Assembly (NCBI RefSeq): GCF_002159705.1
Contig: NZ_NFJD01000002.1
Span: 124,001-188,000, forward strand
Direction of reading: 5' to 3'
Source of the DNA: Elusimicrobium sp. An273
GTDB taxonomy: Bacteria > Elusimicrobiota > Elusimicrobia > Elusimicrobiales > Elusimicrobiaceae
Length of the DNA stretch: 64,000 nucleotides
In this document: positions 36,333 to 50,352 of the stretch, piece by piece
Layout: every line of letters begins with the position of its first letter
Position numbering within the stretch: position 1 is the stretch's first letter
Translations under genes and position numbers: made by a program
Notes under the pieces: model-generated
Told to the model about the DNA's origin: nothing
Database searches by the model: none
The model's input: the letters and a program-made list of their open reading frames with translations, nothing else

Positions 36333-36406
36333 TGTCACCGGGTGGGATCGAACCACCGACCTAGCGCTTATGAAACGCTCGCTCTAACCAGCTGAGCTAC
36401 GGTGAC
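36333..36406 (-). tRNA. tRNA with anticodon CAU (elongator Met, or Ile2 if lysidine-modified)
   Basis: Folds as a complete 74-nt cloverleaf on the minus strand: acceptor GTCACCG/CGGTGAC, D arm GCTC...GAGC, anticodon stem AGCGT/GCGCT with loop TTCATAA, T arm GGTGG-TTCGATC-CCACC, discriminator A. CCA is not encoded. The G1-C72 pair excludes the initiator tRNA. Whether it reads AUG or, after lysidine modification, AUA cannot be decided by eye. Confidence 0.93.
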
Positions 36407-47158: not shown

Positions 47159-48718
47159 TTATGCGTCTTTCTTTTCGTCGGACAAGTAATGGCAGCCCAC
47201 CGAATGGCGGTTTTTCAAGGCGGCGTAAGTAATTAACAGCGCCGTCTGGGTACCGTTGCGCAAGTCCAAGAGTTCCTGGCACAACGCCGTGCCTTTGTAG
47301 AACGCATCAATTTCGTTATGCAAGTGGCGCAGGATTTTTTCCGCGCGGCCCAAATGCTTGCGGCTGCGGATTAAGCCCACATAGTTCCACATCGTACTGC
47401 GCAGGGTGGCCAGATCCTGTTTTACCAGGTTTAAATCGGGCTTTTCTTCCGGCACGACCCACGGCTTGGGATCGGGAATGTGAAACGACCCCGAGGCGAT
47501 ATCCTTCGCATCCGCCTCGGCACACAAATACCCCATGGCCACCGCTTCCAACAGCGACGTGCTGGCCAAGCGGTTGGCTCCGTGGTAGCCGGTGCACGCC
47601 GTTTCGCCGATGGCGTTTAAATTGGCGATGTTGGTGCGCCCCTGCGGGGTGGCATACACGCCGCCGCAGAAATAATGCGCCGCCGGCACCACCGGCACGG
47701 GCACCTTGGTCATATCAAAGCCTTCTTCCAAACATTTTTTGTAAATAGCGGGAAAGCGCTCTTTGGTTTCTTCTGCCGGGTTGGCGGTGGTATCCAAATA
47801 CACGCAGTCGTGGGATGTTTTCAGCCGTTCTTCTTCAATGGCGCGGGCCACGATATCCCGCGGGGCCAAATCTTTAAGCGGGTGATATTTGGGCATAAAG
47901 GCTTCACCATTGCAATTGCGCAAAATGGCGCCTTCTCCGCGCAGGGCTTCGGAAAGCAAAAAGCTTTTCCCTTTGGCAAACACCGTGGGGTGAAACTGCA
48001 CAAATTCCATATTCATCACGCGCGCCCCCACCCGGTACGCCATCGCCACGCCGTGGCCGTAGGCGTGCGCCGCGTTGGTGGTATGGCGGTACACCTGCCC
48101 CACGCCGCCGGTGGCCAGCACCGTTTTCTTAGCCGTTACGGCAAAGACTTCACCCGTTTTATTATCCAGCACATAGGCGCCAAATACCGTCAGCGGGTAG
48201 TAGCGGTCCATCGGGTCGGGCGAACTGTGGGAAAGGGTCAGCAAATCAATGGCCGAGGCATATTCCCGCACGGTAACCAGCGGGTTTTTGCGAACGGCCT
48301 GCTGAATGGCCGCCAGCATGGCGTGCCCGGTGGTATCCTTGGAATAAATAATGCGGTTTTTGCGGTGGGCGCCTTCACGCGTAAAGCGCAGTTGATGTTG
48401 GGCGTCCCGGTCAAAATTGACGGACAAATCCGTCAGAAAAACTTCTTGGACGGCTTTGCACCCGGCGGCGGAAAGTTCCTTGACCGCTTTTTCGTTGCAC
48501 ATGCCGGCCGTGGCCATTTTTACATCGGCCAACAAATCGTCCATATTCAAGTTGGGCTCGTAAACAATCCCCCCTTGGGCCAAATCGCTGTTGGCTTCGG
48601 GCATATCTCCGCAGCACAAGAGCATGGTTTTAAGGCCTTTTTTGGCGGCTTGGTGGGCGTACACGCAGCCCGCAATGCCGCCGCCTATTACTAAACAATC
48701 GGTGTGAAGTACTTTCAT
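47159..48718 (-). CDS. nadB: L-aspartate oxidase
   Basis: FAD enzyme making iminoaspartate for de novo NAD synthesis. 519 residues: dinucleotide motif VIGGGIAGCVYAHQAAKKG, SDLAQGGI, GAHRKNRIIYSKDTTGHAML, LATGGVGQVYRHTTNAAHAYGHGVAMAYRVGA, EFVQFHPT, RGEGAILRN and HYFCGGVYATPQGRTNI. Normal length. No nadA or nadC adjacent. The start ATG at 48718 has no strong Shine-Dalgarno; an AT-rich sequence lies directly upstream. Confidence 0.96.
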   Translation of the reverse strand: MKVLHTDCLVIGGGIAGCVYAHQAAKKGLKTMLLCCGDMPEANSDLAQGGIVYEPNLNMDDLLADVKMATAGMCNEKAVKELSAAGCKAVQEVFLTDLSVNFDRDAQHQLRFTREGAHRKNRIIYSKDTTGHAMLAAIQQAVRKNPLVTVREYASAIDLLTLSHSSPDPMDRYYPLTVFGAYVLDNKTGEVFAVTAKKTVLATGGVGQVYRHTTNAAHAYGHGVAMAYRVGARVMNMEFVQFHPTVFAKGKSFLLSEALRGEGAILRNCNGEAFMPKYHPLKDLAPRDIVARAIEEERLKTSHDCVYLDTTANPAEETKERFPAIYKKCLEEGFDMTKVPVPVVPAAHYFCGGVYATPQGRTNIANLNAIGETACTGYHGANRLASTSLLEAVAMGYLCAEADAKDIASGSFHIPDPKPWVVPEEKPDLNLVKQDLATLRSTMWNYVGLIRSRKHLGRAEKILRHLHNEIDAFYKGTALCQELLDLRNGTQTALLITYAALKNRHSVGCHYLSDEKKDA

Positions 48719-48819
48719 AATATTTATATTATATAAAAAGGCGTTGGGGGCTGAGGAGCCAAAAAAGCAAAAAAATTATTGCATATTCTTTTTATTTTTG
48801 TTATTATATATATCCTTAA

Positions 48820-48848
48820 TTTACAACGTTACTAAAAATTTGTATAAT
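48820..48848 (+). promoter_or_regulatory. Strong promoter of small peptide gene
   Basis: TTTACA at 48820-48825, 17-bp spacer, TTGTATAAT with hexamer TATAAT at 48843-48848. Leader of about 52 nt follows. Confidence 0.75.
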
Positions 48849-48906
48849 ATTTTAAGAAAGATAAGAAGTTCTCTCCTTATCGGACTTTAAACAGGAGAAT
48901 AAAAAA

Positions 48907-48996
48907 ATGATGAAGTTACTTGAAAAAATGGCTGAAGCTCTGACGAAAGTCGGTGAAAATGTCAGCGGCGCCCATTATATGATCAGCAAAAAATAA
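48907..48996 (+). CDS. 29-residue amphipathic peptide, unknown function
   Basis: ATG at 48907 to TAA at 48996. The peptide begins MMKLLEKMAEALTKVGENV and ends SGAHYMISKK. Leu/Met/Val residues repeat every three to four positions (4, 5, 8, 12, 15, 19), giving an amphipathic helix, followed by a short Ser/Gly/Tyr tail. Support: a near-consensus promoter at 48820-48848 and ribosome-binding site CAGGAG at the right distance. The N-terminal helix resembles that of AgrD-type autoinducer precursors, but there is no Cys, no PK-rich tail and no AgrB nearby, so that is not claimed. Confidence 0.6.
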   Translation: MMKLLEKMAEALTKVGENVSGAHYMISKK

Positions 48997-49029
48997 GGGC
49001 GTCTAGAAGCACACAATTAGCAGTTTGAA

Positions 49030-49082
49030 GCCGGCCAGTTGTTTCGCCGGCGGACAGGGGAAGAAAACTCTTCCGCCTGTCC
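49030..49082 (+). ncRNA. Structured RNA 3' of the peptide gene (two hairpins)
   Basis: GCCGGC (49030-49035)/GCCGGC (49046-49051) pair, immediately followed by GGACAGGGGAAGA (49052-49064) with loop AAAC and TCTTCC-G-CCTGTCC (49069-49082), a 13-bp stem with one bulge. No T-tract follows. It may be the 3' end structure of the peptide mRNA or a separate element. Confidence 0.45.
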
Positions 49083-49140
49083 AAAACGGCTTAACAAGAA
49101 GATTCCATAAAGCATACGCTTTGTGGTTTTTTTATGCCCA

Positions 49141-49189: not shown

Positions 49190-49711
49190 TTATTTTGTAC
49201 AGCTATAATAAGAACCGGAGCCGGAGCAATTTGTATATCCCATGGTTACGCACAAGTCATGCCCGGTAGCACTGCGCGAGATGCATTGATCCGGGTAGCG
49301 GCCCGAAGCATACTCCGGATACAGGTAGAAATAATAATCTTTTACCGCATTGTTTTGTACGCGGTTTACCTGTACCCCCCAGGTTTGAATAACAATTTCA
49401 AAGTATTTGGTGCGCAGGCAATAGTCTTTATTGGGGTTTATGGTGCACGAACGCGCATTAGACAGCCCAATATCCAAATAATCGGCTTTGGGACGTTTGC
49501 GCTCCGAATCGGATAAATCCGGGTTGTCGTAATAATACCGGTTTACCGCTTCCAGAACCGTATGTCCCGCCACCAGCCCCTCCGTAAAATGGCTGCGTTC
49601 GGCGGCTTTTTTATAAGAGCCCAATGCAACGCCGGACAAAATGGCAATAATAATCACTACGGCCATGAGTTCCGTCAGCGTAAAACCTTTGGCAAGCATA
49701 TTTTTAAGCAT
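49190..49711 (-). CDS. Type IV prepilin-like protein
   Basis: 173 residues. Leader MLKNMLAKG then FTLTELMAVVIIIAILSGVALGSYKKAAER, canonical prepilin. Soluble part: SCTINPNKDYCLRTKYFEIVIQTWG, DQCISRSATGHDLCVTMGYTNCSGSGSYYSCTK, with six cysteines, several near the C-terminus. Divergent from another pilin gene; minus-strand promoter TATAAT at 49751-49746, ribosome-binding site AGAGGT. Confidence 0.93.
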   Translation of the reverse strand: MLKNMLAKGFTLTELMAVVIIIAILSGVALGSYKKAAERSHFTEGLVAGHTVLEAVNRYYYDNPDLSDSERKRPKADYLDIGLSNARSCTINPNKDYCLRTKYFEIVIQTWGVQVNRVQNNAVKDYYFYLYPEYASGRYPDQCISRSATGHDLCVTMGYTNCSGSGSYYSCTK

Positions 49712-49848: not shown

Positions 49849-50352
49849 ATGAAAAGAAATCATACGGGTTTTACGCTTATTGAACTGTTGGCAGTGGTGA
49901 TGATTATTGCCATGTTAACTTCCGTTGCTTTGCCGCAGTACCGCAAATCGGTACAGCGGGCGGAATCGATGGAAGCGTTGGTTAACTTAAGAACGATTTT
50001 TGACGCTGCCAAGCGCTACCGCTCCGCCAATTCCGAAGCGCCGATGAAACTGAACGGATTGGATGTTTCCTTTTTTGATGCCGACACGCCGGAAGCCTCC
50101 TCTTTTAACATCGGAAACTACCATTACGCTTTTTCCGACTGGGGCGTATCCGCCTGCCGCATCAGCGGAAGCGGTTCCTATGCCAATACTTATTGCTTGG
50201 ATATGTATTATACGTACCGCTTGGGAGACACCAAATACAAGGATTTGCTTATTTGCGCGAGCAAGAGCCAAAAATACAGCTGGTTGTGCGACTCTTTAAA
50301 AACAGATGAACTGCCGGACGGAACAGCCGTCATCGGCACGGAACTGGATTAA
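49849..50352 (+). CDS. Type IV prepilin-like protein
   Basis: 167 residues. MKRNHTG then FTLIELLAVVMIIAMLTSVALPQYRKSVQRAE. Soluble domain with SACRISGSGSYANTYCLDMYYTYR and late LICASKSQKYSWLCDS, two likely disulfides. Divergently transcribed from the neighbouring pilin, sharing a 137-bp promoter region, which suggests coordinated or alternative expression. Confidence 0.94.
   Translation: MKRNHTGFTLIELLAVVMIIAMLTSVALPQYRKSVQRAESMEALVNLRTIFDAAKRYRSANSEAPMKLNGLDVSFFDADTPEASSFNIGNYHYAFSDWGVSACRISGSGSYANTYCLDMYYTYRLGDTKYKDLLICASKSQKYSWLCDSLKTDELPDGTAVIGTELD

Follow-up and report, generated by a model that had tools for sequence, protein, structure and literature searches.

The VcdRP RNA of Vibrio cholerae comes near in architecture to the locus presented here. 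In the part of the report that describes it, VcdRP is an RNA of about 300 nt (306 nt) that encodes a 29-residue protein and ends in a Rho-independent terminator, while VcdR uses a four-cytosine seed for target pairing and has a strict need for Hfq (PMC8672173). Two further messages offer parallels in the way in which access to the ribosome is governed. In the aapA3 mRNA of Helicobacter pylori, the Shine-Dalgarno (SD) sequence is sequestered by transient hairpins and an antisense RNA, IsoA3, is essential (from an excerpt of PMC6733600), and in the timP mRNA mutually exclusive conformations set access to the ribosome-binding site, TimP being a toxic inner-membrane protein that is accompanied by an antitoxin RNA (from an excerpt of PMC11228461). 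On the scale of whole catalogues, the abridged account of GMSC gives more than half of the small-protein families with at least three members as genus-specific (PMC11364881).

The locus considered here lies on the plus strand of a 64,000-nucleotide stretch of DNA from Elusimicrobium sp. An273 (hereafter the window), and its features are collected in Table 1. It shares with VcdRP an intergenic position, a length of about 300 nt, a promoter of its own, a 29-residue protein, conserved 3′ RNA and a Rho-independent terminator; it differs in that VcdRP has, by the excerpted report, a four-cytosine seed and Hfq, whereas Hfq has no match here and no unpaired seed is conserved. The likeness is one of architecture (PMC8672173). 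With aapA3 it has in common a short frame behind an SD sequence that may be sequestered, but nothing here corresponds to the IsoA3 of that excerpt, since there is neither a conserved antisense promoter nor a hydrophobic peptide (PMC6733600). As in timP, conformations of the mRNA are predicted to decide access to the ribosome-binding site, whereas the toxic inner-membrane protein and the antitoxin RNA of the excerpted timP account have no suggested counterpart (PMC11228461). Like the genus-specific families of GMSC, as far as its abridged account goes, this is a conserved smORF of one genus and of no known function, with the difference that its untranslated regions hold conserved structure (PMC11364881). 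Genus-specific small proteins being common, it is the structured message that stands out. Among the literature matches listed, nothing dealt with small proteins or regulatory RNAs of the genus or with this gene. We judge it somewhat more probable than its negation (roughly 0.55) that the locus is a stand-alone, cis-controlled mRNA for a helical small protein that binds a partner.

Table 1. Features of the small-protein locus, numbered from the first letter of the window
Feature	Position	Strand	Remarks
Upstream promoter-like element PA, TTGCAT-17-TATTAT, TG (extended -10)	48779..48807	+	
Promoter PB, TTTACA-17-TATAAT	48820..48848	+	TTTACA 48820-48825 and TATAAT 48843-48848, 17 nt apart; 11 of 12 to consensus; TATAAT in 38/38 loci
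5′ UTR	48856..48906	+	Start predicted from the -10
Hairpin H1, GATAAGAAG..CTCCTTATC	48860..48881	+	Predicted to compete with anti-SD:SD pairing; pattern exact in 15/66 genomes
Anti-Shine-Dalgarno, TCTCCT	48872..48877	+	Complementary to SD
Shine-Dalgarno, AGGAGA	48893..48898	+	
Small-protein gene MMKLLEKMAEALTKVGENVSGAHYMISKK, 29 aa + stop	48907..48996	+	Start ATG 48907, 29 codons, frame end 48996 (read from the sequence and the frame list); relatives in 38/66 genus genomes; dN/dS 0.16
P1, 5′ strand	49019..49026	+	Pairs with 49084-49091, one mismatch
P2 hairpin, GCCGGC..GCCGGC	49030..49051	+	G-C to A-U double changes in 12/33 rows, two pairs
P3 hairpin, GGACAGG..CCTGTCC, one bulged G	49052..49082	+	6/12 pairs changed on both sides; 96.5% of cells paired
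P1, 3′ strand	49084..49091	+	AAAC nearly invariant
Intrinsic terminator, CCATAAAGC..GCTTTGTGG-TTTTTTT	49105..49132	+	

A Conserved Gene for a Small Protein

An earlier note on this DNA had proposed a 29-residue peptide gene behind a CAGGAG ribosome-binding site. The site is present just 5′ of the ATG at 48907, and on the comparative evidence the frame is confirmed as a genuine, very short and genus-restricted gene. A peptide profile, built from 19 versions out of at least 31 distinct ones, gives a single match in each of 38 genomes, out of 66 for the genus (Elusimicrobiota MAGs), and zero credible relatives in the other 274 genomes of the phylum. Eight weak profile matches outside the genus (E 0.001-0.01) were dropped on account of lying inside frames of at least 420 codons, and two within it, in G019 and G032 (E 0.05), on account of lying inside frames of 655 and 634. 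The search of related genomes for the short frame and its promoter, which the note had recommended, thus returned 38 carriers, and the TATAAT box of the promoter is found at each of their loci. Interrupted frames in close relatives, which the note had named as evidence against the gene, were not encountered: internal stops are absent from the matched frames of all 38 carriers, and the small-protein frame occurs in none of the 22 gene-less genomes that can be read 5′ of nadB, where the gene is missing whole.

The manner in which the frame has changed is that of a protein-coding sequence. Pairwise comparison over a 20-codon core counts 3347, 1407 and 7220 differences at codon positions 1, 2 and 3, so that the synonymous bias that was to be checked is evident in the dominance of third-position changes, and the median dN/dS of 0.16 (same core; dS was usable for 272 of the 703 pairs) points to purifying selection. 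Conservation in 38 genomes with change mostly of the synonymous type, together with covariation in both of the hairpins that follow, places the frame beyond chance. Residues A9, G16, N18, G21 and Y24 are invariant across the 19 peptide versions aligned, a core motif demanding them is matched in 38 of 38 carriers, and lengths across the family run from 28 to 33 residues.

The family has no match in Pfam, NCBIfam or PHROGs (three peptides each), in PADLOC (two peptides) or among phage records and viral contigs, and the sequences of the PDB gave nothing usable, with six matches all at E 0.74 or worse. The records behind 32 of the loci bear the names uncultured Elusimicrobiales, Elusimicrobia, Elusimicrobium, UBA1436, Candidatus Avelusimicrobium excrementipullorum and 'uncultured bacterium'; that the carriers come from animal guts is our interpretation of these record names.

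Genomic Place and Inheritance

In 36 of the 38 carriers (G025 among them) the gene and nadB stand head-to-head, the exceptions being G045, which has other frames between the two, and G105, where the contig ends. On the other flank, 30 of 37 loci have a convergent prepilin-like gene as the next called frame, and G001 and G018 have a different convergent frame, which brings the convergent total to 32/37. The contig ends there in G013 and G048. In G005, G035 and G021 the called frame is on the same strand, perhaps because the prepilin-like gene was read from the wrong strand. Two prepilin-like genes are neighbours of each other in the window (49190-49711, minus strand, and 49849-50352, plus strand), each with an N-terminal GFTL[TI]E motif, and frames of this kind are common at the fetched loci, where they make up a cluster of 58 members.

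Twenty-eight genomes of the genus lack the small-protein gene; nadB has a match in 23 of them, and the region 5′ of it is readable in 22. When presence and absence are mapped onto a tree of the nadB protein with 59 rows from the genus (36 carriers and 23 others; one gene tree), the pattern needs four changes (4-5 over bootstraps) against 18.4 in shuffles, and at least two changes are forced by well-supported branches. Two carriers were left off the tree, G010, which is short, and G105, whose contig has no nadB, as were the five gene-less genomes without a nadB match. We read the pattern, on this one gene tree, as ancestral presence followed by about four losses; having been lost several times, the gene would not be essential. 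A mobile element was rejected as an explanation on the grounds of the constant genomic place and of a presence pattern that clusters on the gene tree.

The nadB gene itself (47159-48718, minus strand) has a TATAAT box at 48728-48733 on the minus strand. In 34 of 36 loci the distance from the end of this box to the ATG is 6-9 nt, the script having taken an earlier start in the other two, and a TATAAT-like box lies 6-8 nt before the nadB ATG in 18 of 23 further loci. With the box this close to the start codon, the nadB mRNA is probably leaderless across the genus.

A Three-Way Junction Downstream of the Stop Codon

The two stacked hairpins that had been noted behind the frame, one with a 13-bp stem, are both upheld. 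The 134 nt after the stop codon (48997-49130) fold with z = -6.06, 0 of 200 shuffles being as stable, P3 has 13 pairs and one bulged base in the window, and both hairpins covary. A closing helix, P1, turns P2 and P3 into a three-way junction (49019-49091), which lies 3′ of the stop codon in 35 of 38 carriers. In an alignment of 33 of these 35 (near copies G024 and G012 were left out), 13 of 24 junction pairs have changes on both sides, a count that 4 of 500 shuffles reach, and 89.8% of junction cells are paired (0 of 500 shuffles), against 35-55% when the pairing is slid. Further pair types, one of five covariation measures, are not above shuffles (21 against a shuffled mean of 23.7), and most of the double changes follow a single split of 12 versus 21 rows. 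The aligned sequences support P2 and P3 well; P1 is paired in its main register in 71.2% of cells, and in one clade its register appears, by eye, to be shifted. The basal helices have the invariant sequence GGC-GAC-GG..CC-GUC. Neither the length nor the sequence of the hairpin loops is constant, and beyond P2 and P3 near-invariance is limited to the AAAC stretch, which is left unpaired in one clade, so that no obvious pairing seed is present in the junction.

The junction region has no Rfam match at gathering score (lowest E-value 0.028, 20.2 of 50 bits), the sole Rfam match in the 64-kb window being a tRNA at 36333-36406. A model of the junction found, in 149 genomes of the order, no convincing copy elsewhere and none without the protein once eight of the extra matches had been read, whereas G038, G039 and G049 keep the protein and lack the junction, with a terminator-like hairpin by eye. 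The junction thus belongs to the small-protein gene, yet the protein can do without the junction. As to the extra matches, those in G023, G088 and G035 were rejected as copies for want of P2, and that in G146 because most of P3 is missing; those in G090, G146, G088, G096, G035 and G054 were not counted because they fall in open stretches longer than 100 codons. The match in G083, also not counted, has two hairpins and no long frame; it includes non-standard pairs, and the peptide motif is missing from the preceding 260 nt.

Some of these matches merit record in their own right. Those in G083 (L196 1072-1147, 24.8 bits) and G090 (L195 921-1006, 30.5 bits) are weak, have no peptide nearby and come from one other genus of the order, with E-values per genome of 5e-5 and 5e-7; they are possibly due to chance or possibly distant relatives of the junction RNA. 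Contig 27 of G023, a genome without the peptide gene, holds a strong lone hairpin, AGACGGGAAGGAA..TTCCTTTCCCGTCTAAAAAC (L194 325-384), that closely resembles P3 of one clade and overlaps the end of an 84-residue frame. It is either a chance occurrence or a terminator-like element.

The alternative that survives best takes the transcript to be a dual-function RNA, the 5′ half of which codes while the 3′ junction regulates independently through base pairing or through a protein or ligand. Conservation of the junction with covariation in 35 of 38 carriers suits this idea, as does a basal-helix sequence whose invariance exceeds the needs of mere stability, and the architecture is near that of VcdRP as excerpted (306 nt, 29-aa protein, terminator; PMC8672173). 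Hfq and CsrA, on the other hand, are both without a match in the 66 genomes of the genus, where the same searches match 5 and 3 of 14 control genomes, respectively. The absence of these matches, coupled with the absence of a conserved unpaired seed (the loops are variable and AAAC is unpaired in one clade), disfavours the usual form of such RNAs. The lack of Hfq and CsrA matches also means that post-transcriptional control in the genus must rest on other factors. The junction, moreover, is never convincing without the protein, while the protein exists without the junction in three genomes, and we consider an independent regulatory role doubtful. Hfq is not needed by every dual-function sRNA. 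A variant independent of both Hfq and CsrA, in which the 5′ switch would gate the protein and the junction would represent a new class of ligand- or protein-binding RNA, the two forming a single circuit, can be put forward, but only very tentatively.

Promoters and a Leader That May Gate Translation

The near-consensus promoter of the earlier note, TTTACA-17-TATAAT with 11 of 12 positions, stands as described and is here termed PB; one deep clade and G025 have a weaker -35 element, for a total of 8-10 of 12. Upstream of it, the pattern of PA (TTGCnn-N14/15-TGn-TANNNT) occurs in 31 of 38 loci and its hexamers without the TG in 5 more, the last two loci being readable over a short stretch only, 37 nt in G105 (to the contig end) and 46 nt in G025 (to nadB). 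The span originally reported contains the elements attributed to it but is too short, since PA, the 5′ UTR, P1 and the terminator belong to the unit as well. The promoter and the terminator together suggest that one transcript runs across gene and junction.

The 5′ UTR contains a stretch with complementarity to its own SD sequence (48860-48898). An exact SD complement of at least 6 nt is present in 31 of 38 leaders, with 6-9 pairs, and its CTCC core lies 10-19 nt from the predicted 5′ end; among control genes with an SD sequence, the same holds for 1 of the 37 that the window supplied and for 6 of 183 from flanking DNA (the latter after removal of two, out of 185, with no usable SD). The pairing is kept across deep clades with otherwise different leaders, and in some the bases that flank the SD core change on both sides (GTTTCTCC/GGAGAAAC and ATTTCTCC/GGAGAAAT). 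Complementarity of at least 6 nt is absent in G014, G012, G054, G021, G007, G050 and G051, and five of these seven leaders belong to one subclade with the SD sequence AGGAGGA. Because the rows share ancestry, the count of 31 in 38 does not amount to 31 independent events.

A second structure is predicted to compete for the anti-SD stretch. The exact pattern of hairpin H1 is confined to 15 of 66 genomes, with a single match in each and always at the small-protein locus, and H1 is preferred in the local fold of the window species. A hairpin that competes for the anti-SD would make the leader a two-state switch, which is a model and not a proof. In full-length folds of the 38 loci, the ends of which were set by a simple T-run rule, the SD sequence is paired with the 5′ UTR at a mean of 0.60, with the coding sequence at 0.07 and with the 3′ UTR at 0.04. 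In the window species, the SD pairing is 0.12 in the local fold and 0.27 in the full message, so that its leader is predicted to be open by default; with the SD mostly free, the switch would be weakest at the window locus.

The predicted sequestration of the SD sequence by the 5′ UTR recalls the aapA3 (PMC6733600) and timP (PMC11228461) mRNAs as they appear in the excerpts of their reports, and so brings in a second alternative, a type I toxin, that is, a growth-inhibiting peptide whose ribosome site stays hidden until processing and which an antisense RNA represses. The short frame and its repeated, clean loss would fit, and in G046 (0.42) and G038 (0.55) the full-length fold does place the SD sequence partly onto the 3′ UTR. 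Despite these two loci, a long-range 5′-3′ fold of the message was rejected, such pairing being low on average (0.04). A threshold-limited scan at the locus found no conserved antisense promoter, as opposite-strand promoters of at least 10 of 12 occur in 3 of 38 loci only and are scattered over different places. By their composition (GRAVY -0.24 to 0.26, with charges throughout the helix) the peptides contain no transmembrane segment, they carry invariant N, G and Y residues, the gene is present as one copy in a fixed chromosomal place, and PADLOC is without a match. The toxin-type role once suggested is therefore unlikely: the ribosome site could be sequestered as it calls for, with predicted pairing that varies among the loci and is low in the window species, whereas a conserved antisense promoter and a transmembrane stretch were not found.

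Properties of the Protein

An AlphaFold model of a 33-residue homologue consists of one helix over residues 7-32 (mean pLDDT 83.9, pTM 0.44), and such a lone-helix model says little on function. The amphipathic helix claimed in the earlier note is seen in the window peptide, whose helical moment of 0.57 is equalled in a fraction of 0.0006 of shuffles, and two of three homologues tested are similar to it; it is weak in the third, from G028 (0.40, with 0.073 of shuffles as high). GRAVY is -0.13 for the window peptide, and no transmembrane stretch is evident by composition in the four peptides considered. Residues L5, A9, L12, G16 and V19 lie on one helix face with 4-3-4-3 spacing and small residues in every second layer. 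This heptad pattern is our own reading of the alignment and suggests tight helix packing over loose membrane binding. A face of this kind, with its small layers, makes it most likely that the protein binds a specific protein or itself.

The same helix could instead belong to a secreted or membrane-active amphipathic peptide, such as a signal or a haemolysin-like molecule, and the moment of 0.57 and the predicted helix of the homologue would both accord with that. A signalling precursor, as had been proposed, finds no backing: the peptide lacks a Cys ring and shows no signal peptide by eye, the neighbours include no exporter by eye (clusters judged from first residues), and AgrB is without a match in the 66 genomes, although the control for this search is weak (1 of 14 genomes, below the cut-off). 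The amphipathic helix would allow membrane activity, but strict conservation of G, N, G and Y is unusual for an action that depends on amphipathicity only, and these invariant residues favour a specific partner over membrane activity. Taken as a whole, a secreted or membrane-active peptide is improbable. The short frame with RNA structure behind it also recalls a leader peptide, or an attenuator that would act on a gene downstream. This reading is dismissed at the window locus because the unit ends in a terminator and the frame called after it is convergent, as at 32 of 37 loci.

Proposed Explanation and Implications

The explanation that we favour, a stand-alone message controlled in cis, may be set out as follows. 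Two tandem sigma-70-type promoters would drive a single-gene mRNA of about 280 nt that encodes a small protein of the cytosol or the membrane surface. Pairing of the anti-SD stretch with the ribosome-binding site would gate translation in cis, and in part of the genus, including the window species, a hairpin (GATAAG/CTTATC) would capture the anti-SD and free the ribosome site; co-transcriptional folding, a ligand, a protein and temperature are all candidate triggers. The junction and the terminator would close the message, the junction perhaps stabilizing or protecting its 3′ end or docking a protein. The protein itself, we infer, is one helix that acts by binding a specific protein or itself.

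The locus adds to the described repertoire a small-protein family and an RNA element that are absent from the libraries searched, and it does so in the form of a compact unit, consisting of promoters, putative leader switch, protein, junction and terminator, for which the comparative evidence is clear. With 38 species genomes that carry it and about four apparent losses within the genus, it allows presence to be compared with loss. It also belongs to bacteria without Hfq or CsrA matches, in which control at the level of RNA must work another way. If the dual-function reading were true, protein and RNA would share one circuit in the small-genome Elusimicrobiota.
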